64,000 bases of DNA. Source: Oscillospiraceae bacterium (GTDB lineage Bacteria; Bacillota; Clostridia; Oscillospirales; Acutalibacteraceae). The notes under the pieces were generated by a model. That model ran no database searches. It had not been told where the DNA came from and saw nothing but the letters and a program-made list of their open reading frames with translations. Below, piece by piece: positions 1,907 to 17,244 of this stretch. How positions within the stretch are numbered: position 1 is the stretch's first letter; every line of letters starts with the position of its first letter. Position numbers and translations under genes: made by a program. The stretch spans positions 1 to 64,000 of the forward strand of contig SVOQ01000003.1 in NCBI GenBank assembly GCA_015066345.1. The letters are read 5' to 3'.

Positions 1907-1935
1907 ATTGTACCACAAAAATAGTATAGTGTCAA
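1907..1935 (-). promoter_or_regulatory. Sigma-A promoter of the DUF3800 gene
   Basis: On the minus strand TTGACA (1935-1930), a 17-base spacer and TACAAT (1912-1907). This is a near-consensus vegetative promoter, unusually strong for this element. Confidence 0.8.
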
Positions 1936-2028
1936 TAATGTATGAGTGATAAACCATAATGTTTTTTAAGTTACCACTATTATATACTATGCACACATTA
2001 AATTCAAATATACAAACAAAAATAAATT

Positions 2029-3273: not shown

Positions 3274-3337
3274 ATTCTACTGTATCAAATTCAATTCTGT
3301 CACGAAGCATTTCATAAAGAAGTGTAGGAGAAAACAT
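3167..3337 (-). other. 56-codon acidic open frame overlapping the relaxase 5' end (gene remnant)
   Basis: ATG at 3337 to TAG at 3169-3167, in a different frame from the relaxase. The product is rich in Asp/Glu (EFDTVEFDDEEFG) and has no recognised family. There is no clear ribosome site, and the frame stays open upstream of the ATG to a nearby stop. It is best read as the remnant of another gene joined to the broken relaxase, or as the original relaxase 5' region after a frameshift. Confidence 0.3.
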
Positions 3338-3485
3338 TTGAGGGTTTACATCAAAAATATATTATATTAATAAAAACGAACAATTTCAAATAACATCAAT
3401 TAATCTTTTTCTGAAAGATAGATAGGATAAAACGTTTGCAAAATCTATGTATTCTTATCATTTGAATTATTATTTAATAGTTTTA

Positions 3486-4982
3486 TTAAGACACCATCCA
3501 ATCTACTAAAGGATTGGGTGGTATTTTTCTTTGAAGTCGAAATCGTTCTTCACAATGTATAAAATTTGAAATGTGCATTACGAGGAACAATTTTCCCGAC
3601 CTCTCAACCGCAAATAAACCACATAGCAATTGAAAAAACTTTTCATTCTTTGCTAAATATTTTCTAAGTACATACACAATGTGTAAAATAGGGGCTTTTA
3701 TCACAGGACTTTCATGATTGCATAAATCTTTAATATCCCTCAATAATTCTACACAATGATAGTCGCAACATGAACAGAAGAATTTTTTGATACGTGCCGT
3801 TATATCTCTGCAGACATATGGGATTTTATGGTTATCCAAAATAGTGCTTAATTCATCGTATAATGCTTTATCCTTTGGGACATCGAGGTTCAATGCTTTG
3901 TATGATTGTCCATTGATATACGAGTTCGATTCAGATTTAAATTTACGGAAACAGTAATCTAACACAAAAGTCTGAAACAGCAAATTTTGTATAGATTCAT
4001 CAACATCATATAACGTATTGCGATGATAAATAGTATTAAGTTCTTCCAATTTTTCATCAGGTAAGTTTTCGAAAATGTACTGTCCTAAAAGTATGTCCTG
4101 AGTTGCTTGTGTTATAATCGTATCTTCTTGATCCTTGGAATAACCAGTATCTTCTATAGGATAGATCGATGCTTTAATGTCTTCGATTTTATCCTTTATT
4201 TCACCTTCGAGCAAATATAGTTCCGTTAATATTTCATCAATATTAGGACGAAGTTCAGGGTTTTGAATTCTGCATTTCTGTACAATACTATCTAATGGAA
4301 ATAGAAGTGGATTTTTATCTGCAATTGTTAAAAAATCTTCTCCAGATGGATTCTGTTTGGTAAAAAGCTCATTTATAATTCTTCCTAGAGCATATATATC
4401 GCATGCAGTGGTGACATCATCTGTTGCCAATTGTTCTGGGGCGGCATAGCGACGATTGCCTAACCAATCCCTTGTTTTGGTTTTTGTGGAATCCTCAAAA
4501 TGTGCAATACCAAAATCAGTCAAAACCAACGTGTTTTCATCATCTACAAGTATATTCTCAGGTTTCAAATCCCTATGAATAATACCAGCACTATGATTAT
4601 GAATAAACCGAAGAGCTTCGCACAACTGAATAATGTAGTCCAACAATACAAATGAATCGTTCTCTTCAGCAATAATAGAACGAAGATTTCTTGAATAATA
4701 CGGCATAACACAAAACGCTTTGCCTTTTTCCGTAACATAATCAAAAATTTTGATAATATGTTTGTGATTGGCATATTTACAAAACTGACACTCTCGTTCA
4801 AATCGAGTAAGTTTCACTTTGTTTTTATCATTTTCTTTATTCAAGAATTTTACAGCATATACGCAAGAATCACCCTTCACTTCAGCTTTCCACACAGTGC
4901 CATTTCCGCCGTCATCAATCCATTCCGTAATTGTATAATTATTTGATTCTAACTCTAAATTTGTTCCGACTTGAACTTCCAT
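3486..4982 (-). CDS. Serine/threonine protein kinase with unknown C-terminal domain
   Basis: 498 aa with a complete Hanks-type kinase domain at about residues 15-265: a glycine loop (DDGGNGTVW), Lys45 in YAVKF, the HRDLKPEN catalytic loop (Asp138), DFG (Asp156), APE and the late ELRPN arginine. The remaining 230 residues are helical, contain several Cys and His residues (CSCCDYHC), and belong to no family I recognise. There is no membrane segment and there are no PASTA repeats, so it is a soluble kinase, unlike the housekeeping PrkC. It has its own promoter, and the ribosome site AAGGAG lies 5 bases from the ATG. Its place on a mobile element next to DUF3800 is compatible with phage defence (compare staphylococcal Stk2), but that is inference. 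Confidence 0.85.
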   Translation of the reverse strand: MEVQVGTNLELESNNYTITEWIDDGGNGTVWKAEVKGDSCVYAVKFLNKENDKNKVKLTRFERECQFCKYANHKHIIKIFDYVTEKGKAFCVMPYYSRNLRSIIAEENDSFVLLDYIIQLCEALRFIHNHSAGIIHRDLKPENILVDDENTLVLTDFGIAHFEDSTKTKTRDWLGNRRYAAPEQLATDDVTTACDIYALGRIINELFTKQNPSGEDFLTIADKNPLLFPLDSIVQKCRIQNPELRPNIDEILTELYLLEGEIKDKIEDIKASIYPIEDTGYSKDQEDTIITQATQDILLGQYIFENLPDEKLEELNTIYHRNTLYDVDESIQNLLFQTFVLDYCFRKFKSESNSYINGQSYKALNLDVPKDKALYDELSTILDNHKIPYVCRDITARIKKFFCSCCDYHCVELLRDIKDLCNHESPVIKAPILHIVYVLRKYLAKNEKFFQLLCGLFAVERSGKLFLVMHISNFIHCEERFRLQRKIPPNPLVDWMVS

Positions 4983-5027
4983 TGGTGCTCCTTTCCTTGA
5001 ACCATCGCAAAAAAATTTGGTTTATTA

Positions 5028-5056
5028 ATTATATCATAGGAGTAGGCAGTTTTCAA
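5028..5056 (-). promoter_or_regulatory. Sigma-A promoter of the kinase gene (extended -10)
   Basis: Minus strand TTGAAA (5056-5051), 17-base spacer, TGATATAAT with the -10 hexamer at 5033-5028. Confidence 0.75.
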
Positions 5057-5068
5057 CGGATATAAAAA

Positions 5069-5091
5069 TACCCACTCAAACAGAGTGGGTA
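5069..5091 (-). terminator. Rho-independent terminator
   Basis: 9-bp stem TACCCACTC/GAGTGGGTA with a 5-nt loop. On the minus strand it is followed by ATTTTTATA. It would shield the kinase promoter from upstream minus-strand transcription. Confidence 0.6.
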
Positions 5092-5121
5092 AATACAATT
5101 GTTCTGAACGATATTGTAAAA

Positions 5122-5150
5122 AAATACGCAATCAAAATGATTGCGTATTT
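5122..5150 (-). terminator. Strong Rho-independent terminator behind the tRNA-like sequence
   Basis: Perfect 13-bp stem (5122-5134 with 5138-5150) and a 3-nt loop. On the minus strand it runs directly into a T-rich tail. It begins 3 bases after the CCA end of the degenerate tRNA. Confidence 0.75.
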
Positions 5151-5152
5151 TA

Positions 5153-5225
5153 TGGTGGAGCATAGGGGCGAACCCTGATCTCTTGGCTGTTAGTCAAACA
5201 CTCATCTCAGTTGAGTTAATGCCCC
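5153..5225 (-). pseudogene. Degenerate tRNA (resembles tRNA-Ala), likely pseudogene
   Basis: On the minus strand the sequence has a 7-bp acceptor stem (GGGGCAT with ATGCTCC), a discriminator A, an encoded CCA, a D-stem (ACTC/GAGT), a TTCG in the T-loop position and an anticodon-like loop CTAACAG. The T-arm is about 4 bases short, the D-loop lacks the GG pair, and the anticodon stem has a mismatch. It resembles a Clostridial tRNA-Ala(GGC) that has lost bases and gained mainly G-to-A changes; the loop would now read AAC. A terminator follows directly, so it was once, or still is, a transcription unit. It is unlikely to charge normally. Confidence 0.55.
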
Positions 5226-5727
5226 GTGTAGTATTGTGTTTTAGCTTTGTTTGATATCAATCATCTCGCTCATAGCAACTATAGCCATTGTAGTACTGGT
5301 TATGACGGACAAAGAACACTATAATAATGTTAAGAAACTTTTAATTGATGAAAAGGTCTAATAAAAAAATCAAATAAAAAAATCAACTAAAAAAATCAAA
5401 TAAATAACATTGTTTAGTTGTGAATAGAATAATTTTGTGTGTGGATATGTAGTTGTTATTTTAAAAACAATACACTTGCTTTATATTATTATAAGGACGG
5501 TTGTTATGTGTTAACTTTCCTCAGCATATGTATTTTATAATTGTATGTACGTGTTTTTATAGTTTTACTTACTCGTGTTATAGAAGCGTTTGCATTGGTG
5601 TTTAAAGGCGACATGTGAGTTGCAAACTTTTAGCAAGCGAAGTTTTTAGGCTTTTATTTAACCTGTATAATAAAATACCTATAGTGTTTAATGTATGTGA
5701 TTAGTATTAACGAAACGAATGTAACAT
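5226..5727. other. AT-rich intergenic region between the element and the spoVA remnant
   Basis: No convincing gene. A plus frame ending at the stop near 5360 encodes a short hydrophobic stretch followed by MTDKEHYNNVKKLL. It could be a tiny membrane peptide or the tail of a lost gene, but it has no clear start or ribosome site. The region also holds the 13-bp tandem repeat described separately. Confidence 0.4.
5362..5400. repeat. Three tandem copies of a 13-bp AT-rich unit
   Basis: Unit TAAAAAAATCAAA repeated three times without gaps (5362-5374, 5375-5387, 5388-5400). The only difference is the last base of the middle copy (C). Confidence 0.85.
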
Positions 5728-5754
5728 TTACGCTGATGTGTAAATGTTACATTC
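5717..5754. terminator. 15-bp perfect inverted repeat, terminator-like
   Basis: GAATGTAACATTTAC (5717-5731), an 8-nt loop, then its exact complement (5740-5754), with ATTTTG following on the plus strand. The stop codon of the truncated spoVAD frame lies inside it. It may be a terminator or the end of an inserted or deleted segment. Confidence 0.5.
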
Positions 5755-6471
5755 ATTTTGTTTAATGTGTCTCCTTTCTTGAAATTGATTGTGTAGAAAG
5801 ACCATACCTTTTGTATATGGTCTTAGTTTAACATTAACAGGTGCCATTGCTGCGCCCATATTGTTGGAGTCAGTTATATTTAAATCACGAACTTCCCCGA
5901 TAATTGCTTTATCAATTATAGGGGAATTGTTTTCTTTTTGTGTATTACTGACGATGGCACAACCGGCACCGGTTACTGTCCATTGTGCGGCAGGGGTTCT
6001 TTGTCCGCCGTATTCAAGGGGGAATCTGTATTGTCGTTCTGCGGAGCAGAAATGTGACGATGCGGCGGCTACTGCGTTTGTGACGGCACCCGAATCAACG
6101 AGGATTCCCGACATTATAAGGGATAGAGCCATTGTAGAACACGCACCGTATAACCCCGAAAAAGGGATTTTTAAGTCACGCATACCAAAAGATGAGCCGA
6201 TACATTGATTTAAAAGGTCACCTGCAAAGGCACATTGAATATCAGTCTTATTTAAACCTGCTTTTTTCAAAGCGGTGGTAATAGCGGATTTTTGTAAATG
6301 GGTTTCGGCTTTTTCAAAGGATTTTTCACCACAGAATTCATCGGTAAAAATTTTATCAAAATATTCTCCGAGAGGTCCCTCGGATTCCATTTTACCAACG
6401 GCGGCTGCATAGCCGATAATATTGGGTTTGTTTGTAAAAGTTATGGTGTAATTACCTGTTCTTTCGGCCAT
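5728..6471 (-). pseudogene. spoVAD: Stage V sporulation protein AD, 3'-truncated
   Basis: From the ATG at 6471 (GAGGAAG upstream) the product matches SpoVAD: FTNKPNIIGYAAAVGKMESEGPLG near the N-terminus, YGACSTMALSL with the thiolase-fold cysteine, SHFCSAERQYRFPLEYGGQR, and the later NNMGAAMAP block. SpoVAD helps move dipicolinic acid into the spore and is usually about 340 aa. Here the family match stops after MAP (base about 5835). The next 37 or so codons are unrelated, so roughly the last 100 residues are missing. The usual downstream spoVAE genes are also absent. A 9-bp hairpin at 5798-5824 lies just past the junction. Probably non-functional unless another copy exists. Confidence 0.8.
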
Positions 6472-6551
6472 AAAATACTTCCTCAAATTATAGTGGAAAT
6501 ATTTTTTGTAATATGACTCAGAATATACGAATCCTTTAAAAAATGAAAACA

Positions 6552-6580
6552 TTTACAAAATTATATAAATATGATATTAT
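6552..6580 (+). promoter_or_regulatory. Sigma-A promoter of the lipoprotein gene
   Basis: TTTACA (6552-6557), 17-base spacer, TATTAT (6575-6580), about 20 bases before the coding start. It overlaps the upstream region of spoVAD on the other strand. Confidence 0.65.
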
Positions 6581-6600
6581 GACGAAGAGGAGTGGTGTGT

Positions 6601-7269
6601 ATGAAAAAAATACATTTAATTATACCTGTTCTTATAGTATCTATTATGTTTTTAGGTTGTTTTGGCGGTAAGAAACAGGCGGAAGAAGTTTCAACAACAA
6701 CTCAACCGGAAACAACCACAGAATCTACCGGCTCAATAGAGGTAATTGACAAAGACCCCGTTGAAAATACCCAACTTTCCGAAGTTGAATGGGATTTGAA
6801 TTTACCGATACCTCAAGGCTCAATGGATTTTACATTCAGTAGCGGTGCAGGCGGTTGGGGTACGGTTATGACCCTTAAGGATGACGGCTCCTTTACGGGT
6901 GAATACCACGATTCCGAAATGGGTGATATGTCGGAAGAATATCCCAATGGTACTGTTTATGTATGTAATTTTTCAGGTAAGTTTGAAAATATAAAGAAAG
7001 TTAACGAGTATACATACAAAATGACTTTGTCATATATTGACAAAGAGGAAACCTATGGCGAAGAATGGATTGAGGACGGTATAAGATATATAGGCGCTAA
7101 CCCCTATGGTCTTGAGTCAGGTAAGGATTTTTACTTCTATCTTCCCGAAACACCTGTGCACGAGCTTTCAGAAGGCTTTATGACCTGGTCACCAAACTAT
7201 TATTCGGGCTACACTCTTGAGTATTACGGTATCTGGAATGTGGAGAATGACTACGGATTTTTCGGATAA
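6601..7269 (+). CDS. Secreted lipoprotein of unknown function
   Basis: 222 aa from the ATG at 6601, with GAGGAG 8 bases upstream; a GTG nine bases earlier is less likely. A short signal peptide ends in the lipobox IMFLGC, so the mature protein should be lipid-anchored on the outer face of the membrane. A Thr/Glu-rich linker (TTTQPETTTESTG) follows, and then a beta-rich domain with many Gly and Tyr residues and no family I recognise. It is the first plus-strand gene of the accessory block inserted between spoVAC and spoVAD. Confidence 0.75.
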   Translation: MKKIHLIIPVLIVSIMFLGCFGGKKQAEEVSTTTQPETTTESTGSIEVIDKDPVENTQLSEVEWDLNLPIPQGSMDFTFSSGAGGWGTVMTLKDDGSFTGEYHDSEMGDMSEEYPNGTVYVCNFSGKFENIKKVNEYTYKMTLSYIDKEETYGEEWIEDGIRYIGANPYGLESGKDFYFYLPETPVHELSEGFMTWSPNYYSGYTLEYYGIWNVENDYGFFG

Positions 7270-7286
7270 TTAATTTGCTTTTGTGG

Positions 7287-7316
7287 TTGACTTTATTAAA
7301 TCTTAATAAATAATAC
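7287..7316 (+). promoter_or_regulatory. Promoter of the pnuC transcript
   Basis: TTGACT (7287-7292), 18-base spacer, TAATAC (7311-7316), immediately before the structured leader. Confidence 0.5.
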
Positions 7317-7321
7317 TTTTA

Positions 7322-7409
7322 GTAACTGCCACCGGGTAGTAAGATGCAAATAGCATCCGTTTACACATCGTTAGGTCTTAGAAGATGTGTATACGGATGC
7401 TTGTTTTTT
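7322..7409 (+). ncRNA. Candidate NAD+-II (pnuC motif) riboswitch with terminator
   Basis: The leader has a small hairpin CTGCC-ACCG-GGTAG (7326-7339) and a second, GATGC-AAATA-GCATC. The second competes with a long terminator stem (7353-7369 with 7384-7400, 16 bp with one mismatch) that ends in TTGTTTTTT and is followed at once by the ribosome site AGGAG. Use of the same GCATC strand in both folds makes it a switch. Its position directly before pnuC fits the pnuC-motif NAD+ riboswitch class, but I have not checked it against a covariance model. The switch architecture is clear; the ligand is inference. Confidence 0.6.
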
Positions 7410-7420
7410 AGGAGAATTTT

Positions 7421-8101
7421 ATGAGAAAAGCAATAAACTATTTTTCAAAATTTGAACTCGCACTATGGATAACGTCGGTGCTTCTGATTACAGTATCATT
7501 TTTAGCTTTCGACAGAACAAATTATCTTACCTTGTGTGCGTCACTTATAGGTGTTACATCACTTATTTTTTGTGCTAAAGGGAATCCCGTAGGGCAAATA
7601 TTTATGATAATTTTCAGTTTGCTCTATGGGGTTATATCCTACGGGTTTTCGTATTATGGTGAAATGATAACATACCTTGGTATGACTATGCCAATGGCAG
7701 TTTTTTCGTTAATTTCGTGGCTTAAAAACCCGTATAAAGGTAAGAAAAGCGAGGTTAAAGTAAGTAAACTGAAAAACAGTGAAAAAATAATAATCTCAGT
7801 TTTGACTGTATTGGTTACAACTCTTTTCTACTTCATTTTAAGTTACTTTAACACCGCGAATATTTTACCAAGTACCGTTTCGGTTACCACAAGCTTCGCC
7901 GCAGCCACTCTTACATTTCGCAGAAGTCCGTATTTTGCGTTGGTTTATGCTATGAATGACGTTGTGCTTATAGTATTATGGGTGTTAGCGAGTATGAGTG
8001 AACCCAGGTATATTTCAGTGGTAGTGTGTTTTGTAGCATTTTTCTTTAATGATGTTTATTGCTTTGTGAATTGGCAGAAAATGAAAAGAAGACAAAAATA
8101 G
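7421..8101 (+). CDS. pnuC: Nicotinamide riboside transporter PnuC family protein
   Basis: 226 aa, about seven hydrophobic helices, with the family's conserved FCAKGNPVGQIFMIIFSLLYG segment and the C-terminal MNDVVLIVLWVLA helix. PnuC proteins bring nicotinamide riboside (or a related vitamin) across the membrane by facilitated diffusion for NAD synthesis. The ATG at 7421 has AGGAG 6 bases upstream. It is expressed from its own leader switch, so it is likely turned down when NAD-type metabolites are plentiful. The gene ends one base before the convergent oxidoreductase. Confidence 0.85.
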   Translation: MRKAINYFSKFELALWITSVLLITVSFLAFDRTNYLTLCASLIGVTSLIFCAKGNPVGQIFMIIFSLLYGVISYGFSYYGEMITYLGMTMPMAVFSLISWLKNPYKGKKSEVKVSKLKNSEKIIISVLTVLVTTLFYFILSYFNTANILPSTVSVTTSFAAATLTFRRSPYFALVYAMNDVVLIVLWVLASMSEPRYISVVVCFVAFFFNDVYCFVNWQKMKRRQK

Positions 8102-8102
8102 T

Positions 8103-8573
8103 TTAAGCCTCGTTTACGAGTTTACCCGTCATATGCTCGATTTCAAGGCACATAACGATAGTGTTTTTTTGAAATTTATCTATTTCACTATTTATGTACT
8201 CCATATCATCGGTAAATCGTTTGCAAAAGGAAACCATCATATCACGTGACCAGTTTTCGGTAATGCTTATTTTACCGAAAACAATAACACTTTTTATATT
8301 GAGCGACCAATGGTTATCCTTATGATATCCTTTGTCATATACGCAGAAGGATGCTTTGTTGTTTTTCTTAATAGAATCCAACTTATGCCCCTCTTTACCC
8401 GTATGAAAATAAATTTTATTTTCGGTAGCGTCATAGTAAAAGTTTATCGGTAAAGCATAGGGATAATTATCGTCACCTATAACGGACAAAACACCTCTCG
8501 GTTCATTTAATAAAATTGCTTTGCACTCGTCTTCGGATAATTGTTGTTTGATTCGTTTTAATGGCCTGAACAT
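8103..8573 (-). CDS. Pyridoxamine 5'-phosphate oxidase-family flavoprotein (Nim-like)
   Basis: 156 aa, starting MFRPLKRIKQQLSEDEC at the ATG at 8573 with GGAG 7 bases upstream; a TTG four codons earlier overlaps that ribosome site. The split-barrel flavin fold is shown by GVLSVIGDDNYPYALPINF, IYFHTGKEGHKLD and the late VMCLEIEHMTGK. Members bind FMN or F420; Clostridial relatives are annotated as nitroimidazole-resistance or general flavin reductases. The exact substrate cannot be told. It is the only intact minus-strand gene of this accessory block. Confidence 0.8.
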   Translation of the reverse strand: MFRPLKRIKQQLSEDECKAILLNEPRGVLSVIGDDNYPYALPINFYYDATENKIYFHTGKEGHKLDSIKKNNKASFCVYDKGYHKDNHWSLNIKSVIVFGKISITENWSRDMMVSFCKRFTDDMEYINSEIDKFQKNTIVMCLEIEHMTGKLVNEA

Positions 8574-8677
8574 TTCTTGCTCCAATCAAAGATTAAAATT
8601 TGAAAATATTATAATATATGTACAATGAAAGCACAAGTGTGGTATAATGAAAATAATTAAAAAGCGGTGGTGTTAAT

Positions 8678-8905
8678 GTGACTAAAGAAGAGTTTTTGGA
8701 TTCACTTAAAAATAAAGGTGTATCAACGGATATTATCCATTTTGAAAACGCCGTTGCAGACGGATACTACGTTATCAAAAACTATCATCGATGGGAAGTA
8801 TCTTTCCGCGAAAGAGGAAAAGATTACGATTGTTTGGGTTTCCCCTCTGAAAGTGATGCGTTGGAATATTTGTATGAAGTATTATTGAAACGTTTAATGA
8901 AATAA
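8678..8905 (+). CDS. Small immunity-like protein of unknown function
   Basis: 75 aa from a GTG at 8678; an ATG two bases earlier is followed at once by a stop in its own frame. It contains GYYVIKNYHRWEVSFRERG and SESDALEYLYEVLLKR. The pattern of an aromatic-rich strand, ERG and a final Ser/Glu helix is typical of small immunity proteins that accompany polymorphic toxins. No toxin gene is nearby. The upstream -10 region TGTGGTATAAT (8640-8650) is identical over 11 bases to that of the gene at 12058, hinting at a shared origin. The function assignment is weak. Confidence 0.5.
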   Translation: MTKEEFLDSLKNKGVSTDIIHFENAVADGYYVIKNYHRWEVSFRERGKDYDCLGFPSESDALEYLYEVLLKRLMK

Positions 8906-8949
8906 AAAATAGAACATTATTTTGAAACATTAATTGGGGTAGAAGAAAG

Positions 8950-9441
8950 ATGAGGATAAACTTACATGAAAACACACCTATAAAAGATTGGAAGAAATGG
9001 AGATTTATCATAGTGTGTTTTTCGATATTTTTATACTGTATACCCGTGTTATTGGCGTGTCTGTTTTTTATAGAAGCCAAAGCAATTGTAGCAGGTATAT
9101 TAACTCTGGCTTTACCGGCATTTTTAATAACAATATTGCTTCGTTCTTTTTTTCGTATGGTAAAATCCTATGCGGAATTTGATGATGAAAAAGTTACGGT
9201 AGTTGAATTTTTTGCTTTTAGAAAAAAGACAACGAATATCCCGCGTTCCGAACTAAAACAACGTAAGAGCGAATCTGCCTCGTACAGTCCGGGCAGAGGG
9301 TTACATACTCCAAGACGATTTCGACAGTTTTTGGATTTCAGGTACATTGTTTTTCGAAATGCAGAAGGTGAATATTTATTTAAAATATTGGACACTCCCG
9401 AAGGCAATCAGTGGGCGGATAAGTTGATGAATAATCAATAA
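8950..9441 (+). CDS. Small membrane protein with PH-like cytoplasmic domain
   Basis: 163 aa. Two hydrophobic segments (about residues 18-38 and 46-68: FIIVCFSIFLYCIPVLLACL and the next) are followed by a soluble beta-rich region (YAEFDDEKVTVVEFFAFRKK) that resembles bacterial PH-like domains. GAAGAAAG precedes the ATG at 8950. No enzyme motif is visible. It lies between an immunity-like gene and another protein of the same architecture at 9497, so it may protect against or sense something at the membrane; this is inference. Confidence 0.6.
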   Translation: MRINLHENTPIKDWKKWRFIIVCFSIFLYCIPVLLACLFFIEAKAIVAGILTLALPAFLITILLRSFFRMVKSYAEFDDEKVTVVEFFAFRKKTTNIPRSELKQRKSESASYSPGRGLHTPRRFRQFLDFRYIVFRNAEGEYLFKILDTPEGNQWADKLMNNQ

Positions 9442-9496
9442 ACAATCCCTTGAATACCACGTATAACAGGAGCGTGGATAGTGTGAGGTGTGGGAA

Positions 9497-9985
9497 ATGA
9501 AAGTAAAAGCAGTTTTATCTGCCATCATGGGCTTCTTCTTTGGATTAACAACTTATTTCGTATTACGATACATTGAAGAACCCGATGCTTTTTTATTTGC
9601 AGTTATTGGTGGTTTGTTTTTTTACCTTGTGCTGTTTGTGTTTCTAATAACTCACGAAAAGGTAATGAACAAAAAATACGCTGAATTTGAAAAGAAAATT
9701 CTTTCTCCTGTTTTTCATAAAACTAACGGAAATTTTAAACTCCATAACGGTAAAATTAAAAATGCAAACATATATTTCTGTGAGGATGGCATCGCTCTAA
9801 TTTCGTTAGACGAAAAACCTTTTATTATGGAAGAAATACAGAGAAGCAACATCTATAGAATTCAGTGTGATGATATACATTTCAACATAAATACCAGCGA
9901 TGGAAAGGTTTATATCATAACAATGCCCGATGCGAAAGAAGTGTTTCAAAAACTGAAAGAAAAAGATTGGATTATTCAAATATAG
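9497..9985 (+). CDS. Small membrane protein with soluble C-terminal domain
   Basis: 162 aa from the ATG at 9497; an upstream GTG-type start at 9488 would add three residues. Two transmembrane helices (about residues 5-22 and 32-54) are followed by a beta-rich cytoplasmic domain containing ANIYFCEDGIALISLDEKP and a lysine-rich tail. It has the same layout as the product at 8950, though sequence similarity is low. The gene ends just before a strong hairpin and the first spoVAC tail copy. Function unknown. Confidence 0.6.
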   Translation: MKVKAVLSAIMGFFFGLTTYFVLRYIEEPDAFLFAVIGGLFFYLVLFVFLITHEKVMNKKYAEFEKKILSPVFHKTNGNFKLHNGKIKNANIYFCEDGIALISLDEKPFIMEEIQRSNIYRIQCDDIHFNINTSDGKVYIITMPDAKEVFQKLKEKDWIIQI

Positions 9986-9986
9986 A

Positions 9987-10016
9987 AAATGGGCAGCCAA
10001 ATTCGGCTGCTCATTT
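9987..10016. terminator. Bidirectional terminator hairpin
   Basis: AAAATG-G-GCAGCC, a 6-nt loop, GGCTGC-T-CATTTT: 12 paired bases plus one G-T pair, with A/T tails on both sides. It ends the 9497 gene and overlaps the end of the minus-strand spoVAC tail copy. Confidence 0.75.
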
Positions 10017-10196
10017 TAGCATCTGACATATCCAATAAATCAATCCATACATCACACTTGCCAGCGTGCCGTAGACAATAAAGGGTCCCGCAATGGTAAA
10101 CATCTTCGCTCCAACGCCTAAGATGAAACCTTCTGATGATGTCAAGTTAGGACCCATTTTTTGAATTATCGCAGGAATATTGTTATTTATTGACAT
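10011..10196 (-). pseudogene. Detached copy of the 3' end of spoVAC (copy A)
   Basis: A 61-codon frame whose last 40 codons encode EGFILGVGAKMFTIAGPFIV and on to the end. This is the same C-terminal transmembrane tail as the full spoVAC at 12580, with several residue changes (FIVYGTLASVMYG) and a different last four residues (CQMLK-type end). The front part of SpoVAC is missing; upstream the frame gives only a loose match. An ATG exists at 10196 but no ribosome site is seen, and it overlaps the -35 box of the next plus-strand gene. Best read as a displaced gene end, not a functional gene. Confidence 0.75.
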
Positions 10197-10218
10197 GCTC
10201 TATCAGAAAGGCTAAAAT
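10190..10218 (+). promoter_or_regulatory. Sigma-A promoter of the TPR-nuclease gene
   Basis: TTGACA (10190-10195), 17-base spacer, TAAAAT (10213-10218), 30 bases before the ATG. It starts inside the upstream edge of spoVAC tail copy A. Confidence 0.75.
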
Positions 10219-10248
10219 GAAATAATAAATGATTGAGAGGTAATCATT

Positions 10249-11745
10249 ATGACTGATCAACAATTGCAAGAACTCTTCATAAATGAGTTCCCCTCCAGCA
10301 TGCCTATAGCAGAAGTTATCAATAAATTTGATAATATGCCAGAATCGCAGAACAAGCGGTTTCTTCGTTTGCAATACTGTAATTGGCTTGTAACAGTTTT
10401 AACGAAGAATTATATTAAGTATGATTTTGATCAAATCGACATTAAAGATATCGGTATACAATCGTTTTTAAAAAATGCAGTAGAATTAGACAAGCAAGAA
10501 TATTTTTATTGGGCCTTTTTTCATTTTCTAAAGGGGGAGTATGCGTTGTGCAAGCAACAGATCCATGCACTCTTGCAAAGTCTGGATTTCTCAGAAGAAC
10601 CTTTTGGCGAAACAGATTTTGCTGATTTGTTAATCGTACCTTTCAAAAACGGTTTTGAAGGTTTTTGGGCATTTGTTGCAAGTGAAATAAAGTGTGTTGA
10701 ATTTAAAAAAGGTGTTGTTGAACTTTGTAGTGTTATAGATCTGTACTATAACAGCATAAGTAACGAAGAGATTCTTCAAGCATTGCAGAAATATATCCAA
10801 AACCACCCCACGTCTGGTATTGCTACTGAACTTTTAGGATTTACATACTATTCCATGTCAATGTGGAATAATGCCATCGCATATTTAGAAAGAATTGATA
10901 CATCTGTATTTTTCTATCCGGATGAAATATACTGGATGCTTGCTTGGTCGTATGGTAAGATCAAAAACTATGTTGATGAGGAAAACTGTTATCGAAAGTG
11001 TATTGAGATATACCCTGATAGAGAGTTTCTTCTCAACAATCTTGGATATTGCCTGCTAAAGCAAAAAAAGTATGGTGAAGCGGAAAAGCTTTTTAAGAAG
11101 TGTATTGAGCAGCATATAGATTTACCCTATGCAGCCAATAACTATATTCGTGTTTTAATTGCTACCGGAAGAAATACCGATGCAAAAAACTTTGTCAAGA
11201 ATGCGGATTGCCCTATCAGTAAAACTCTCAAAGATAAAGTTTCTAAACTTCCACTCACAAATACACCGTTAAAAAAGAATGTTCCTGTAATCGAAGTTGC
11301 TCAAGATGATGACCACACAAAAGTAATTGCGCAGTCTATAGGTATTAAACGTCAGCAATTCTCTAGTGAAAAGTTACTGGAAGATGAACTAACCGCACGA
11401 CTTGAAGCTGGAGTACCAGTTTTTGATCTCAATCTTAAAATATATAGGCGTCGAGGTGAGTATGGACGGCAATATATTATTCCGGTAGGTAGATTAGATT
11501 TATTGTGTGAAGATGATAATGGATATCTATACATTATTGAACTAAAAAAAGATAGCGGTTATGATGATGCATACAAACAAACTGCAGAGTACTTAGAATG
11601 GTTTGAAAACAGTGAAAAATTCAAAGGGAAGCGGGTATATGGTATTATTTGCTTAAACAATCCGACCCAAGAATTAATCAGCAAAGTACATAGTGATAAA
11701 CGTATGAAACTGTATGAGTATTCGATTTCTTATACAGAACGTTAG
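10249..11745 (+). CDS. TPR-repeat protein with C-terminal PD-(D/E)XK (NucS/DUF91-like) nuclease domain
   Basis: 498 aa. The middle (about residues 165-330) contains TPR-like helical pairs, for example NNLGYCLLKQKKYGEAEKLF and the preceding FYPDEIYWMLAWSYGK. The last 150 residues form a PD-(D/E)XK-type nuclease core: GRLDLLCED (Asp417) and YIIELKK (Glu431, Lys433), then a QTAEYLEW helix, as in NucS/DUF91 endonucleases. A scaffold-plus-nuclease layout suggests a defence or DNA-repair role, but no partner is encoded. GAGAGG precedes the ATG. The gene sits alone between spoVAC tail copies A and B, as a single-gene cassette. Confidence 0.75.
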   Translation: MTDQQLQELFINEFPSSMPIAEVINKFDNMPESQNKRFLRLQYCNWLVTVLTKNYIKYDFDQIDIKDIGIQSFLKNAVELDKQEYFYWAFFHFLKGEYALCKQQIHALLQSLDFSEEPFGETDFADLLIVPFKNGFEGFWAFVASEIKCVEFKKGVVELCSVIDLYYNSISNEEILQALQKYIQNHPTSGIATELLGFTYYSMSMWNNAIAYLERIDTSVFFYPDEIYWMLAWSYGKIKNYVDEENCYRKCIEIYPDREFLLNNLGYCLLKQKKYGEAEKLFKKCIEQHIDLPYAANNYIRVLIATGRNTDAKNFVKNADCPISKTLKDKVSKLPLTNTPLKKNVPVIEVAQDDDHTKVIAQSIGIKRQQFSSEKLLEDELTARLEAGVPVFDLNLKIYRRRGEYGRQYIIPVGRLDLLCEDDNGYLYIIELKKDSGYDDAYKQTAEYLEWFENSEKFKGKRVYGIICLNNPTQELISKVHSDKRMKLYEYSISYTER

Positions 11746-11782
11746 AAGCACTATCTGAGACATGCCATCCACAACCTTCTTT

Positions 11783-11825
11783 CCAACACTATCAACGGGT
11801 ATGCACCCTATGTGGTGCACACCCG
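11783..11825. terminator. Hairpin behind the TPR-nuclease gene
   Basis: CGGGT-A-TGCACC, loop CTATGT, GGTGCA-C-ACCCG: 11 paired bases with one mismatch (within 11797-11825). It lacks a clear T-run, so terminator function is likely but not certain. It takes the same place as the hairpins between the other accessory genes and spoVAC tails. Confidence 0.5.
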
Positions 11826-11848
11826 TACTACTGTAATTAATTATTTCA

Positions 11849-11995
11849 CTAAAAAAGTGTTATTATCCAATATATTATTCCATAAATGACACTTGCACTA
11901 ACGCCATACACAATAACTGGTCCTGCAATGGTGAACATCTTTGCCCCAACTCCCAAGACAAAACCCTCTGCTGCTGTCAATATAGGACACACCAT
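11849..11995 (-). pseudogene. Detached copy of the 3' end of spoVAC (copy B)
   Basis: A 48-codon frame that aligns codon for codon with the last 39 codons of the full spoVAC. By my count 20 of the 39 codons differ silently and only 4 change the amino acid, all conservatively. It also shares its upstream edge (GTCCTA, TTGACA, CAGCAGAG-type bases) better with copy A than with the full gene. Further upstream, FAN-like codons appear in another frame. The pattern means it descends from a diverged but selected spoVAC rather than a recent local duplication. No ribosome site; not expected to be functional. Confidence 0.8.
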
Positions 11996-12006
11996 TTGCA
12001 AAAAGA

Positions 12007-12035
12007 TTTACATTACATTGGCGGTGTGGTATAAT
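12007..12035 (+). promoter_or_regulatory. Sigma-A promoter of the 161-aa immunity-like gene
   Basis: TTTACA (12007-12012), 17-base spacer, TATAAT (12030-12035) preceded by TGTGG, giving an extended -10. Confidence 0.7.
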
Positions 12036-12057
12036 CAAATGAAGTGAGGTGTGGTAA

Positions 12058-12543
12058 ATGAAATATACTTCAACAAATATCTTTTCGGATTTTGAGTTTC
12101 ACGACGCTTATTTTAAATTAGAAAGCATCAAAGACAATACATTAACTATTTCTGTTCGATACTTGAATATCCATAAAGGCACTGAACAAAACCCCTATAA
12201 TACCGATATGGAAATTGAGATTGCACAAATCACTTTTAGCAATTTTAAATTTATTTCATTTGAACCCGGCAGATCATGGAAACAAGATGCAAACGGAAAA
12301 CTCTACACCGATGAACCACAGGTTGTTTTTGAAGGACAAACCGCAGAAGACAAGTTGCTAAATGAACTTCGTATTGGCTCAACTGTTTTCGAATTTGGAA
12401 CACTCGAAAATGGTAACTATTATTTTGATGGTGCTGGTGATGAGCCTTGGTTCCAAGCGCAGTTCTTATTTGATTCTGTTACAATTCAGTGGGATGCGTT
12501 TAGAAAACCAGCTTGGTATGAAGAAAGACCATTTAAGACATAG
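12058..12543 (+). CDS. Immunity-like protein, family not recognised
   Basis: 161 aa, ATG at 12058 with GAGGTG 8 bases upstream. The protein is acidic, soluble and beta-rich: NIFSDFEFHDAYFKLESI, VRYLNIHKGTEQNPYNTDME, GRSWKQDANGKLY, WDAFRKPAWYE. No catalytic motif or membrane segment is seen. Size, charge and isolated position resemble orphan immunity proteins found in cassettes of gut bacteria, but no toxin partner is present. It is the single gene between spoVAC tail copy B and the complete spoVAC. Confidence 0.6.
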   Translation: MKYTSTNIFSDFEFHDAYFKLESIKDNTLTISVRYLNIHKGTEQNPYNTDMEIEIAQITFSNFKFISFEPGRSWKQDANGKLYTDEPQVVFEGQTAEDKLLNELRIGSTVFEFGTLENGNYYFDGAGDEPWFQAQFLFDSVTIQWDAFRKPAWYEERPFKT

Positions 12544-12545
12544 AA

Positions 12546-12576
12546 AAAATGCGGCACTAATTTAGTGCCGCATTTT
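12546..12576. terminator. Bidirectional terminator between the immunity-like gene and spoVAC
   Basis: AAAATGCGGCAC, a 7-nt loop and GTGCCGCATTTT form a 12-bp stem with A and T tails on both sides. It serves the converging genes at 12543 and 12580. Confidence 0.85.
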
Positions 12577-12579
12577 ATA

Positions 12580-13020
12580 TTAGAACAATGTTGTTATCCA
12601 ATAGATGAATCCGTAAACAACACTCGCACTTACGCCGTAGACGATGACCGGGCCCGCTATTGTGAACATCTTGGCGCCGACGCCCAAGATAAAACCCTCT
12701 GCTTTAAATTCTACTGCGGGGGATACTACCGAGTTTGCGAAGCCTGTAATGGGTACGGCGGTGCCTGCACCCGCGTGTTTTGCTATTTTATCAAAAATAC
12801 CCGAGCCTGTAAGTATTGCGGTTATTATAATAAGTGTTGCACAGACCGCGAGTTTCACTTCATCCGTATTAAGTCCTAAACGGGTGTAAAAAAATTTTAA
12901 AACCTCACCGAAGCAACATATACCGCCACCGAAAATAAAAGCCATAAAACAGTTTTTGATAATAGGGGATTTTGGTGTTTCTTTGCTTACGAGGTCCTTG
13001 TACTGAGATTTATCCGTAAT
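12580..13020 (-). CDS. spoVAC: Stage V sporulation protein AC
   Basis: The product is membrane-bound with the SpoVAC signature AGAGTAVPITGFANSVVSPA followed by EGFILGVGAKMFTIAGP. SpoVAC forms the mechanosensitive channel that carries dipicolinic acid during sporulation and germination. An ATG at 12945 gives only 121 aa. In-frame family-like sequence (DKSQYKDLVSKETPKSPIIK) extends upstream to an ATT at 13020 preceded by AAAGGAAG, giving 146 aa, close to the usual 150. No ATG, GTG or TTG exists there, so an ATT start is proposed. The gene normally precedes spoVAD; here 6 kb of accessory genes separates them. Confidence 0.8.
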   Translation of the reverse strand: MTDKSQYKDLVSKETPKSPIIKNCFMAFIFGGGICCFGEVLKFFYTRLGLNTDEVKLAVCATLIIITAILTGSGIFDKIAKHAGAGTAVPITGFANSVVSPAVEFKAEGFILGVGAKMFTIAGPVIVYGVSASVVYGFIYWITTLF

Positions 13021-13075
13021 AACACTTCCTTTGTTTTTTAGTATTTTGCCACTTGAGTTTAGTTATATTCAGTAC

Positions 13076-13104
13076 TTGATTATAATAGAAAGATATAGTA
13101 TAAT
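13076..13104 (+). promoter_or_regulatory. Sigma-A promoter of the hydEGF operon
   Basis: TTGATT (13076-13081), 17-base spacer, TATAAT (13099-13104). A leader of about 120 bases follows. Confidence 0.75.
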
Positions 13105-13232: not shown

Positions 13233-13490
13233 ATGGCTTCAAGAGTTGGTGTTATCAGCATAATAGTTGAAAACGGCGATTCCGTCGAGGAGCTTAACGC
13301 TATTTTACATAAATACGGCGAATATATCGTTGGAAGAATGGGTATTCCTTATCGGCAGAGGAGTATAAGCATTATTTCTGTTGCGGTGGATGCACCACAG
13401 GATGTAATATCCACCTTAAGCGGTAAAATCGGCAATCTTAAGGGTGTCAGTGCGAAAACCGTACTGTCAAATGTAATAAGCGATGAGTGA
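13233..13490 (+). CDS. TM1266-family iron-only hydrogenase system regulator
   Basis: 85 aa, small ACT/NikR-like alpha-beta fold: MASRVGVISIIVENGDSVEE, GEYIVGRMGIPYRQRSISII and a C-terminal GVSAKTVLSN. This family is found with [FeFe]-hydrogenase maturation genes and is thought to bind a metal or amino acid-type effector; it has no DNA-binding domain of its own. GGGGGCG upstream of the ATG is the ribosome site. The gene overlaps hydE by 8 bases, implying translational coupling. Confidence 0.85.
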   Translation: MASRVGVISIIVENGDSVEELNAILHKYGEYIVGRMGIPYRQRSISIISVAVDAPQDVISTLSGKIGNLKGVSAKTVLSNVISDE

Positions 13491-14544
13491 TGTATTAAAA
13501 CTTGCCGAAAAGCTTTATGAAAACCGCTCGCTGAGCGTTGATGAGTATGAAAAGCTTATAATATATCGTAATGATGAATGTACCCGCTATATTATGGCTA
13601 AAGCGGGTGAAGTCCGAAAGAATATTTACGGTAACTCCGTTTTCATAAGAGGGCTTATTGAAATAAGCAACATCTGTAAAAACAATTGTTATTATTGCGG
13701 TATAAGGGGCGGTAATACTAATTGTGAGCGTTACAGACTTACTCCCGAGGAAATACTTGATTGTTGCAAGGATGGCTACGCTTCGGGTTTTCGTACCTTT
13801 GTTTTACAGGGTGGCGAGGATAACTTTTTTACGGATGATGTTCTTTGTGAACTTATCGGTAAAATAAAATCCCTTTTTCCCGACTGTGCCGTTACACTTT
13901 CCCTTGGGGAAAGAAGTAAAGAAAGTTACCAAAAACTTTATGATGCAGGGGCGGACAGATACCTTTTACGTCACGAAACTGCTGACGAGGTTTTGTATAG
14001 TAAACTTCATCCTGTGGGAATGAAACTTCAAAGCCGTTTGGAATGTCTTAAAAACCTTAAGGAAATCGGGTTTCAGACGGGTTGCGGTTTTATGGTGGGT
14101 GCACCTTTTCAGACCGTTTCACATATAGCGAAGGATTTAAAATTTATTGAGGAATTCCAACCCCATATGTGCGGTATAGGTCCTTTTATACCCCATAAGG
14201 ATACGGTTTTTAAAGATGAAAAATCGGGTAGTGCAGAACTTACCTGCTACCTTTTATCCATCATAAGGCTTATTTGTCCCAATGTGCTTTTACCCTCAAC
14301 CACCGCTTTGGATACGGTTGATGAAAAGGGATGCGAAAAGGGAATTCTTTCGGGTGCAAACGTAGTTATGCCCAATCTTTCACCCGAAAATGTAAGGGGA
14401 AAATATAATCTTTATAATAATAAAAAATTCACCGGTGTACAAAGTGCCAAGGATTTGGAAAGCCTTAAAAACCGTATGAAAAAAATCGGTTTTCAGGTTC
14501 TTTGTGACCGCGGTGACGTAATAAAAATATCTGACGGAAAGTGA
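13483..14544 (+). CDS. hydE: [FeFe]-hydrogenase H-cluster maturase HydE (radical SAM)
   Basis: 353 aa radical-SAM TIM barrel with the CX3CX2C cluster motif CKNNCYYC (Cys65, 69, 72), followed by GGEDNFF and a TLSLGERSKESYQ segment typical of HydE. It works with HydG and HydF in the cytoplasm to build the di-iron subcluster of the hydrogenase active site, acting on the HydG-made Fe(CO)2CN-cysteine complex. It sits second in the operon, overlapping the small regulator, with hydG 28 bases downstream. A catalytic hydrogenase gene must lie elsewhere in the genome. Confidence 0.93.
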   Translation: MSDVLKLAEKLYENRSLSVDEYEKLIIYRNDECTRYIMAKAGEVRKNIYGNSVFIRGLIEISNICKNNCYYCGIRGGNTNCERYRLTPEEILDCCKDGYASGFRTFVLQGGEDNFFTDDVLCELIGKIKSLFPDCAVTLSLGERSKESYQKLYDAGADRYLLRHETADEVLYSKLHPVGMKLQSRLECLKNLKEIGFQTGCGFMVGAPFQTVSHIAKDLKFIEEFQPHMCGIGPFIPHKDTVFKDEKSGSAELTCYLLSIIRLICPNVLLPSTTALDTVDEKGCEKGILSGANVVMPNLSPENVRGKYNLYNNKKFTGVQSAKDLESLKNRMKKIGFQVLCDRGDVIKISDGK

Positions 14545-14572
14545 AAGCTGACCCAAAGAGAGGAGAAAATTT

Positions 14573-16021
14573 ATGGCTATTTATAATCCAAAATCATTAA
14601 AAGCAGAAGAATTTATCAACGACGGCGAAATTCTCGAAACAATAAAATATGCCGAGGAAAACAAGAATAATTTTGAACTTATTGACTCAATTCTTGAAAA
14701 AGCAAAACCCCTTAAAGAGGGTAACGGTTACCGTTGTACGGGTCTTACTCACAGGGATGCGGCGGTGCTTCTTGCCTGTGACGACCCTCAGAAAATCGAG
14801 GAAATGTACGCTCTTGCCAACGATATTAAACAGAAGTTTTACGGCAACAGAATTGTTATGTTTGCCCCGTTGTACCTTTCAAACTATTGTGTAAACGGTT
14901 GCGTGTACTGCCCTTATCACCTTAAAAATAAGCACATTGCCCGTAAAAAACTTACTCAGGAAGAGGTTAAAAACGAGGTAATTGCACTTCAGGATATGGG
15001 TCACAAGCGTCTTGCCATTGAAGCGGGTGAGGACCCGAAGAATAATCCTATTGAATACATACTCGAATGTATCAAAACCATTTATAGCGTTAACCATAAA
15101 AACGGTGCAATTCGCCGTGTTAATGTTAATATTGCCGCAACCACTGTTGAAAATTACCGTAAACTTAAGGATGCGGGTATCGGTACATATATTCTTTTCC
15201 AGGAAACATACCATAAGAAAAGTTACCTTGAACTTCACCCCACAGGTCCTAAGCACGATTACGATTACCATACCGAGGCTATGGACAGAGCCATGGAGGG
15301 CGGTATTGACGACGTAGGTCTTGGTGTGCTTTTCGGACTCGAGAGATATATGTATGAATTTGTAGGACTTCTTATGCACGCAGAACATCTTGAAGCGGTT
15401 CACGGTGTAGGTCCTCATACAATAAGCGTTCCTCGTCTTAAACGTGCGGACGATATTGACCCCGATACATTTGACAACGGTATAAGCGACGAGATGTTTA
15501 AAAAAATTATCGCTTGTATTCGTATTGCCGTTCCTTATACAGGTATGATTATCTCAACCCGTGAAAGTGAAAAGGTCCGTGGCGAGGCACTTCACCTCGG
15601 TATATCACAGATAAGCGGTGCTTCACGTACATCCGTTGGTGGTTATACTGAAGAGGAACGTCCCCACGATTCGGAACAGTTTGATGTTTCCGACCAACGT
15701 ACTCTTGACGAGGTGGTTCGTTGGCTTATGCTCAATGGTCATATTCCCTCATTCTGCACCGCTTGTTACAGAGAGGGCAGAACGGGTGACAGATTTATGA
15801 GCCTTTGCAAAAGCGGTCAGATTCTTAACTGTTGCCATCCCAACGCACTTATGACTCTCAGCGAGTATCTTGAGGACTATGCTTCACCCGAAACTAAAAA
15901 AGCAGGATACGAAATGGTGGCAAAGGAACTTGAAAACGTGCCACTTGAAAAGGTTCGTAATATTGCAAAGAAGAATATTGAAGATATTAAAAATTCAAAC
16001 AGACGTGATTTCAGATTTTAA
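14573..16021 (+). CDS. hydG: [FeFe]-hydrogenase maturase HydG (tyrosine lyase)
   Basis: 482 aa. The radical-SAM cluster motif CVNGCVYC (Cys106, 110, 113) is near the N-terminus, and the HydG-specific C-terminal cluster site is in FCTACYREGRTGDRF with CC in QILNCCHPN. HydG cleaves tyrosine to supply CO and cyanide ligands bound to iron. The length is normal for the family and both cluster sites are intact. GAGAGGAG lies upstream of the ATG. Codon use is highly biased toward -CTT/-CGT codons, like the pyr and pur genes, consistent with strong expression. Confidence 0.95.
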   Translation: MAIYNPKSLKAEEFINDGEILETIKYAEENKNNFELIDSILEKAKPLKEGNGYRCTGLTHRDAAVLLACDDPQKIEEMYALANDIKQKFYGNRIVMFAPLYLSNYCVNGCVYCPYHLKNKHIARKKLTQEEVKNEVIALQDMGHKRLAIEAGEDPKNNPIEYILECIKTIYSVNHKNGAIRRVNVNIAATTVENYRKLKDAGIGTYILFQETYHKKSYLELHPTGPKHDYDYHTEAMDRAMEGGIDDVGLGVLFGLERYMYEFVGLLMHAEHLEAVHGVGPHTISVPRLKRADDIDPDTFDNGISDEMFKKIIACIRIAVPYTGMIISTRESEKVRGEALHLGISQISGASRTSVGGYTEEERPHDSEQFDVSDQRTLDEVVRWLMLNGHIPSFCTACYREGRTGDRFMSLCKSGQILNCCHPNALMTLSEYLEDYASPETKKAGYEMVAKELENVPLEKVRNIAKKNIEDIKNSNRRDFRF

Positions 16022-16044
16022 TACGTACAGATTAAGGTGATTTT

Positions 16045-17244
16045 ATGGGATTAAATGAAACTGTATCTGCCGAAAGAATACACATAGGTTTTTTCGGTTT
16101 GCGTAATGCGGGTAAATCAAGCCTTGTTAATGCGGTTACGGGTCAGTCGCTTTCGGTAGTATCGGATGTTAAAGGTACTACCACCGACCCTGTTAAAAAG
16201 GCAATGGAGCTTTTGCCCTTGGGTCCCGTTGTGATTATTGATACCCCCGGTATTGATGACGAGGGCACTCTCGGTGAAAAGAGGGTTGAAAAGGCCAACG
16301 AAATACTTTCTAAAATCCATATTGCAATAATTGTAACGGATGTTAGTGTTGATTTAACCGCAAAAGAAAAGGAACTTATTGAACTTTTCAAAAAACGTGA
16401 TATTCCCTACATAGTGGCTTACAACAAAAGCGATATCTCCCAAAAGGAAATCATTTTAAAAGAAAACGAAATCCTTGTAAGTGCTTTGAGAGGCGAAAAC
16501 ATTAATTTACTTAAAGAAAAAATAGGTCAGTTGGCTAAAACGGTTTCATCACCGCGTTATATCGTTTACGATAAACTTAATGAGGGCGATACGGTAATTA
16601 TGGTGACGCCCATTGATGAATCCGCCCCAAAGGGAAGAATTATTCTACCCCAACAATTGACCTTAAGGGAAATTCTGGATAGGAATTGTACAGCCATAGT
16701 TTGCCAACCCGAGCAGTTAAAGGGTACTGTTGAGGGCTTGAAAAATAAACCTAAACTGGTTATTACGGATTCGCAAGTCTTCGGTAAAGTTGCAAAAATT
16801 TTACCGCCCGACCAGCTCCTTACATCCTTTTCAATACTTATGGCACGTTACAAAGGTGACCTTGATGTGCTTGTGGAGGGTGCAAATAAACTTTCAAAAA
16901 TCAAGGATGGGGATAAAATTCTCATAAGCGAGGGTTGTACCCATCACCGCCAATGTAACGATATCGGTACGGTTAAAATGCCCCAATGGATAAGGGATTT
17001 CACTAAAAGTGAACCTGAGTTTTCCTTTACCTCGGGTGGTGAATTTCCCGATGATTTAAGCGAGTTTTCACTTATTGTTCATTGTGGCGGTTGTATGCTT
17101 AATGAAAAGGAAATGAAGTACCGCCTTACTTGTGCAAAGGCGCAGGGTGTACCAATAGTAAATTACGGCGTCGCCATTGCACAGATGCACGGTATTTTAA
17201 AAAGAAGTCTTGAAATATTCCCTGAAATTGCTGAAAGGATTTAA
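16045..17244 (+). CDS. hydF: [FeFe]-hydrogenase maturation GTPase HydF
   Basis: 399 aa. The N-terminal GTPase domain has the P-loop GLRNAGKSS (residues 18-26), the DTPG switch and a YNKSD-type base motif. A middle dimerisation domain and a C-terminal iron-sulfur domain follow, with cluster ligands in EGCTHHRQC and VHCGGC. HydF is the scaffold on which HydE and HydG products assemble the H-cluster precursor before delivery to the hydrogenase. All expected motifs are present. It is followed after 2 bases by a small unknown gene, so the operon continues. Confidence 0.95.
   Translation: MGLNETVSAERIHIGFFGLRNAGKSSLVNAVTGQSLSVVSDVKGTTTDPVKKAMELLPLGPVVIIDTPGIDDEGTLGEKRVEKANEILSKIHIAIIVTDVSVDLTAKEKELIELFKKRDIPYIVAYNKSDISQKEIILKENEILVSALRGENINLLKEKIGQLAKTVSSPRYIVYDKLNEGDTVIMVTPIDESAPKGRIILPQQLTLREILDRNCTAIVCQPEQLKGTVEGLKNKPKLVITDSQVFGKVAKILPPDQLLTSFSILMARYKGDLDVLVEGANKLSKIKDGDKILISEGCTHHRQCNDIGTVKMPQWIRDFTKSEPEFSFTSGGEFPDDLSEFSLIVHCGGCMLNEKEMKYRLTCAKAQGVPIVNYGVAIAQMHGILKRSLEIFPEIAERI

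Follow-up and report, generated by a model that had tools for sequence, protein, structure and literature searches.

The 3' end of the sporulation gene spoVAC in an Oscillospiraceae bacterium (assembly GCA_015066345.1, contig SVOQ01000003.1; the 64,000 nucleotides analysed are called the window) is followed by a stack of displaced copies of that same gene end, separated by single genes. The nearest published case is the ssrA island array of Dehalococcoides. In that array, the islands follow one another in tandem behind a single conserved gene and are bounded by repeats of its 3' end, and a 15-bp motif that does not align with the intact gene stands beside each repeat; 16 islands have an integration module with a serine recombinase and 15 do not, and the authors suggest that the latter may be cis-mobilizable elements (CIMEs) moved by accretion (PMC3146451). 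The staphylococcal cassette chromosome (SCC) is mentioned there alongside the islands (PMC3146451). Like these arrays as so described, the spoVAC array consists of tandem units at a gene 3' end, with repeats, an adjoining motif and recombinase-less units. Unlike them, it targets a protein gene and has a repeat of about 40 codons versus 20 bp; its units mostly hold one gene (median 1121 bp among 67 complete units), often with its own promoter, and the site has three full-length recombinases and exchange across genera.

Two further systems bear on the comparison. CIMEs have lost integration and transfer genes, have kept their attachment sites and are stacked with integrative and conjugative elements (ICEs) or integrative and mobilizable elements (IMEs) at a gene end (PMC5704250). 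The spoVAC units likewise lack a recombinase and are stacked with integrative elements at a gene end; unlike CIMEs, which that text describes as decayed elements, they are regular single-gene cassettes common to several genomes (PMC5704250). For ICEs with serine-integrase triplets, the published account reports position-wise clustering in trees, very short repeats of 2-8 bp and, in streptococci, the named targets mutT, traG and hsdM (PMC4701971). Mobile elements at the spoVAC site, referred to below as trio elements, resemble them in carrying three serine recombinases that cluster by position, and differ in their spoVAC target and in the cassette array at the same site (PMC4701971). The direct repeat at the ends of a trio element may be GA (or AA), judged from one element whose ends lie on two contigs.

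SCC forms composite arrays of multi-gene islands with a CcrA/CcrB pair or CcrC. The spoVAC system shares with it serine recombinases, insertion at a conserved gene end and composite islands; its target is spoVAC, not rlmH (orfX). Integrons are arrays of exchangeable single-gene cassettes at one site, with a tyrosine integrase, folded attC sites and mostly promoterless genes. The spoVAC array is also one of exchangeable single-gene cassettes at one site; unlike integrons, it has proposed serine recombinases, boundaries made of a spoVAC tail and a 17-nt motif, and promoter-like sequence, antisense to spoVAC and left of the motif, at 39 of 56 sites (2.8 expected in shuffled sequence). No intI-type tyrosine integrase stood beside the array in the two genomes searched for it (G000 and G007). 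Literature searches judged by titles and the beginnings of abstracts returned no report of spoVAC as an integration site, prophage attB or cassette site, and nothing on a spoVAC site among work on integron-like cassettes of Clostridia, serine-recombinase gene cassettes, CIME accretion, recombinase triplets or composite SCC; one paper retrieved for spoVAC with spoVAD and mobile elements dealt with spoVA genes as cargo. As far as this literature was searched, the new features are single-gene units often with a promoter, a site in a sporulation gene, a renewable 40-codon tail, occurrence in many genera and a target-specific trio. We propose that the stack is probably an array of single-gene, CIME-like cassettes that occupy an attachment site for serine recombinases within spoVAC and are accreted and moved by trio elements.

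The window contains an intact spoVAC gene (12580..13020, minus strand) encoding 146 amino acids (aa) and matching the whole Pfam profile PF03862 (SpoVAC, E 3.4e-39). Two displaced tails lie downstream on the same strand: tail B (11849..11971, 40 codons plus stop) and tail A (10011..10136, 41 codons plus stop), both of which start at the codon just ahead of Glu-108 (codon 107 in the window protein) and exceed the SpoVAC cut-off in a genome search (as 11849-12001 and 10011-10196). Units are ordered as spoVAC tail, stop, terminator, usually one gene, and motif, and the last 40 codons of spoVAC itself are the tail of the newest cassette. That cassette continues with a terminator hairpin of 14 pairs between spoVAC and cassette gene 1 (12546..12576, found by scan), gene 1 itself (12058..12543, plus strand, 161 aa, without a Pfam family), its promoter TTTACA-17-TATAAT (12007..12035, plus strand) and the recombination-type motif GTCCTATATTGACAGCA (11972..11988, minus strand). 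After tail B come a hairpin noted by eye (11795..11826), cassette gene 2 (10249..11745, plus strand, 498 aa, with TPR repeats and a NucS-C-like nuclease domain), its promoter TTGACA-17-TAAAAT (10190..10218, plus strand) and the motif GTCCTAACTTGACATCA (10137..10153, minus strand). Tail A is followed by a scanned terminator hairpin (9993..10010) and a third-unit gene (9488..9985, plus strand, 165 aa), in a unit resembling cassettes at loci L015 (69%) and L157 (90% over 501 bp). The array as a whole is flanked by spoVAC on one side and by the N-terminal part of spoVAD on the other.

These results bear out the first-pass annotation of this DNA in its description of a complete spoVAC with two detached repeats of roughly the final 40 codons, each tail followed by a hairpin (two by scan, one by eye) and an oppositely oriented gene. 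The separate promoters that it gave to the cassette genes correspond to the two top promoter-like sites of positions 9900-13100 (11 of 12 matches each), which fall exactly in front of the two genes; overall, the scan was at chance, with 13 promoter-like sites versus 12.5 expected and 3 terminator-like sites versus 2.1. The annotated unit of tail, hairpin and gene is right in what it includes and incomplete, as a recombination-type motif at the far end and often a promoter belong to it too. It also reported no integrase: no recombinase gene lies within the window stack, and elements with a serine-recombinase trio occupy the same site in other genomes.

The motif marks a fixed boundary. A conserved 17-nt sequence, GTCCTANNNNGACANMA (frequent variant GTCCTACTTGACCACAA), lies immediately before displaced tails, including both of the window, and is lacking from the intact spoVAC. 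Protein similarity alone detected 17 displaced tails (15 in 9 of 79 loci, two in the window), and the motif was present at all 17 with 0-2 mismatches of 13 fixed letters; the 113 sites classed as intact had at least 4 mismatches (median 8). Across 56 aligned displaced sites, some of which came from searches with a motif-containing model, GTCCTA was conserved at 0.96-1.0 per position. The first tail codon was GCA at displaced sites (93-98% per position) and variable in 35 intact genes, and the dinucleotide GA was common to both. The window's own 2.33-Mb genome held two motif matches with up to 3 mismatches, both in the stack (one for the motif read backwards as a control). Because the boundary is fixed, the cassette process looks site-specific. 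Several sites carry the motif with only the first 26-35 nt or so of a tail (L082:5464-5511, L014:12564, L022:11622, L171:9369 and 14505, L237:7022); these may be decayed tails or a shorter site type.

Displaced tails differ from gene ends in the manner of working genes. Over 41 within-genome pairs of gene end and displaced tail, 35 codons each, there were 440 silent and 186 replacement changes and one stop, where random single changes would give 2676 silent versus 8349 replacement (about 1:3); the displaced tails were therefore once the ends of working spoVAC genes, as the first-pass annotation held of a diverged, selected spoVAC. Its count for tail B also stood: 40 aligned codons comprise 16 identical, 20 silent and 4 replacement differences, that is, 24 changed codons, and tail A gives 14, 16 and 6 over 36 codons. 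Local tandem duplication of the spoVAC end followed by divergence would explain why the tails are directly oriented beside the gene, and nearly identical tails or tail starts at L166, L170 and L142 would suit it; the mostly silent differences, the mostly unrelated genes between tails and the presence of the same units elsewhere speak against it, and for the window the silent-change pattern and a cassette shared with another genome contradict it, leaving duplication very improbable.

Scanning genome contigs for SpoVAC yielded 79 loci. At 13 of them the site is empty, spoVAD beginning no more than 160 bp downstream of spoVAC. Relatives differ in gene content at the site, and neither a one-time tandem duplication nor a constant gene content was seen. 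At least one displaced site was present at 42 loci (71 displaced-type and 39 other site rows), from which the complete units, each of at least 300 bp, were taken. By a simple longest-ORF rule, 53 of these 67 had a single open reading frame (ORF) of at least 70 aa and 3 had none; the main ORF was oriented opposite to spoVAC in 50 units and in the same direction in 14. With incomplete units counted as well, 42 of 110 had a GGCTTGNCC hairpin after the tail. The 88 cassette ORFs fell into 67 groups, 13 of them found in more than one cassette. Pfam searches of 79 proteins (78 of the ORFs and the third window gene) returned, among the 25 of 82 families listed, AraC and MerR regulators, YitT membrane proteins, oxidoreductases, a transporter and others, the only family related to mobile elements being IS200-like Y1_Tnp (3 of 79 proteins), taken as cargo. 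PADLOC matched 27 families, mostly by one member each. None of the 88 ORFs was similar to the collected serine and tyrosine recombinases by blastp at E 1e-3.

A sequence-only model built from 15 displaced tails was searched in whole genomes, and matches including the motif were counted by eye. Motif-bearing displaced tails occurred in at least 2 of 22 genus genomes, at least 27 of 398 family genomes (16 genera; 0-3 motif mismatches at fetched sites) and, within the order, at least 14 of 394 genomes (8 families). All three sets include the window's own genome, and some genomes were drawn for both the family and the order. Two of 16 order-level matches with an early model start (G620, G699) had no clear motif on inspection and were left out of the count.

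The same cassettes occur in different genomes, at different array positions and in different neighbourhoods. Cassette 1 of the window is the second cassette of G007, at 92% identity over all 731 bp and 96% in the body. For seven of the shared cassette pairs, body identity was set against the identity of the 300 nt of spoVAC that precede the site. In four of them, body and spoVAC identities were 96.0/72.2, 96.0/62.7, 87.6/66.5 (spoVAC taken from another contig of that genome) and 94.5/57.7%; the other three gave 77.6/73.6, 71.2/61.1 and 62.1/69.3%, the last of which, with two units that differ by internal insertions, does not support transfer. Since bodies are 88-96% identical while spoVAC is 58-72% in four of seven pairs, the sequences indicate that cassettes move horizontally. 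The first-pass annotation had envisaged repeated uptake of units, each renewing the gene end; repeated acquisition that renews the spoVAC end holds, with uptake as its putative route.

The exact motif pattern was found in two IMG/VR contigs, L237 and L238. In both, a small DUF6870 protein accompanies a tandem set of three large serine recombinases, which motif and displaced tail follow directly. All six recombinases have Pfam Resolvase and Recombinase domains, and by eye L238 continues from the tail into a spoVAD-like start. The third trio protein had its best family relative in G157 (56%, all others at most 39%; 61 of 398 genomes matched at E <=1e-60) and its best order relative in G509 (54%; one of 394 genomes at E <=1e-120). 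Both genomes have the trio directly before the inner motif part and a displaced tail, then spoVAD. The trio is complete in L237, L238 and G157, and its first gene is cut by the contig end in G509. In a tree of 25 recombinases, with a small comparison set drawn from 7 other stretches, the spoVAC trios formed 100/100 clades, of three members for the first protein of the trio and of four each for the second and third. A search of viral contigs for related loci with the third trio protein returned only L237 itself; 8 phage and 2 plasmid records matched it at E 1e-60, and the one inspected, MT837168.1 (52% identical), ends before the expected site.

Judged from these ends, the trio elements terminate in the same kind of motif and at the same spoVAC codon as the cassettes. 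The front part of spoVAC in G509 ends after codon 106/107, on a separate contig, and this break is taken to be the left end of its element. The element ends share GA, and also AA just before it; either gives an in-frame empty site, and GA is preferred as the likely crossover because displaced sites nearly always have the codon GCA before GA. The 56 displaced-site boundaries and the G509 ends would thus place a crossover dinucleotide at 12698..12699 (minus strand) in the window, within the Glu-108 codon. The G509 element leaves the spoVAC end unrestored, unlike the cassettes.

Both arrangements expected of CIMEs were observed: recombinase-less units lie between attachment-type sites in tandem at a gene end, and recombinase-bearing elements occupy the same site (four trio elements), in L237 also beside a unit. 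L237 is composite, with the trio followed by tail, cassette, partial tail, cassette and tail. We suggest the following cycle. The trio, recombining at GA in the Glu-108 codon, would integrate its element at the spoVAC end, ahead of the array; excision through its left end and a more distal motif would give one circle with the trio and one or more cassettes, which would integrate in a new host. The trio would then exit alone through the proximal motif. The donor tail, gene and motif would stay behind, spoVAC would be restored and the host's former tail would be displaced. Cassettes behind the trio, as in L237, are what accretion of this kind predicts. The link from trio to cassettes draws on the shared site, the clade specificity and this one composite contig, and is probable to that extent. 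Cassettes may persist because spoVAC stays intact and an expressed gene is gained.

Several observations weigh against trio-driven accretion. Trios are rare (one of 398 family genomes, one of 394 order genomes and two IMG/VR contigs, versus at least 27 of 398 family genomes with tails), the contigs L237 and L238 are short and have no assigned host, and among the 27 tail genomes the third trio protein has only distant relatives (5 genomes, 34-36%). G157 and G509 keep only the inner motif half, ACTTGACACAAGCAGARGG; the choice of GA rests on one left end, on the separate G509 contig, and on the GCA codon at displaced sites. The front part of spoVAC was not seen in the 59.9 kb read of G157; a Pfam search of that genome gave the tail and one whole SpoVAC-family member on contig C4, by eye a SpoVAE-type paralogue. 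If crossover were fixed at codon 107/108, each cassette should carry its complete tail along, yet tail identity in shared cassettes is 67-82% (126 nt compared) where bodies reach up to 96%, similarity rising only near the tail end or at the terminator. Tail positions of about 6-66 are also more alike within than between genomes (0.79-0.94 versus 0.59-0.82 per bin; 41 versus 1919 pairs from 42 loci), and the simple stacking of the first-pass annotation does not predict such host-like first 60 nt or so in many genomes. Because the tails of shared cassettes are less alike than the bodies and begin host-like, some homologous exchange between tails must also act.

Homologous recombination alone, with tails as homology arms through which RecA recombines imported DNA or circles into stacks and shuffles them, would account for these host-like starts and for switch points that vary within the tail, and it would suit G007, which has an array and no serine recombinase match. 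Tails that are 67-82% identical in shared cassettes would be a poor substrate for it; the 17-nt motif does not derive from spoVAC and is conserved all the same, also in cassettes with a sense gene, and trio elements terminate in the same kind of motif. We regard recombination by RecA alone as unlikely. In many genomes tail starts are homogenised (the L142 copies are alike over about 55-68 nt), and the tail end and terminator are not. We infer that tail copies in one lineage underwent gene conversion or recirculated, and that selection for a functional gene end contributed. A single fixed crossover at either tail end did not account for the mosaic tails, and a target duplication of about 60 nt was dropped, as the left switch point varies by eye from about 52 to more than 110 nt.

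A trans-acting recombinase other than the trio, host XerC-like or an unseen helper, could also move the cassettes, with the trio merely sharing the site. An XerC-like tyrosine recombinase (327-373 aa; name assigned here) was present in 10 of 10 array genomes tested and was the single tyrosine recombinase match in G000 and in G007, on contigs other than the array. The inner motif and tail start are, however, the same in trio elements and cassettes, and nearly all genomes should encode an XerC-like protein to resolve their chromosomes, which weakens the argument from its presence; a trans-acting mover therefore seems more doubtful still than RecA alone. In G000, G007, G231 and G195 only the longer XerC-like type was found, and a second type of about 297 aa was not. 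Tyrosine recombinases were rejected as movers, G000 and G007 having the XerC-like protein only, and an apparent resemblance between the motif and a dif half-site was set aside. We thus retain movement by trio elements as the probable explanation.

Beyond the stack, the insertion between spoVAC and spoVAD continues into an older part with various genes (6592..9441), in which no spoVAC tails were found; it includes an NMN-transporter-like gene (7421-8101), with a similar cassette gene at L142 and by eye also at L170, and a pyridoxamine-oxidase-like gene (8103-8585). The N-terminal part of spoVAD, the usual spoVAC neighbour, lies at 5830..6471 (minus strand) and is cut by another element. The gene is split between the window (1-6552) and contig C38, where its C-terminal part has, by eye, one large serine recombinase and a small DUF6870-like protein as neighbours. 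Frames resembling a primase, a relaxase and a kinase, also seen by eye, suggest a second mobile element in spoVAD. The ATT start codon of spoVAC (13018-13020) is shared by the two closest relatives, L005 and L006, and is ATG in the more distant L007, L010 and L020. The genes upstream of spoVAC (13233-17244) resemble what we take to be a hydrogenase maturation cluster (HydE, HydG, HydF).

More tentatively, the system may parallel the integron, with serine recombinases in place of its integrase: spore-forming Clostridia would share a pool of cassettes, each with one gene and a promoter, that are captured at one spoVAC codon and moved by a dedicated trio, and each cassette's own tail would serve as both attachment site and gene repair. 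This broader reading is possible, and we hold it with less than even confidence. If true, it would be an unrecognised platform for single-gene trade among mostly uncultured Clostridia, outside the integron. Gene exchange would be tied to a sporulation gene, in that the trio element with both ends seen breaks spoVAC and the cassettes keep it whole. The motif and tail together offer a ready marker for collecting cassette genes, and the origin and movement of single-gene cassettes outside integrons would become directly testable.

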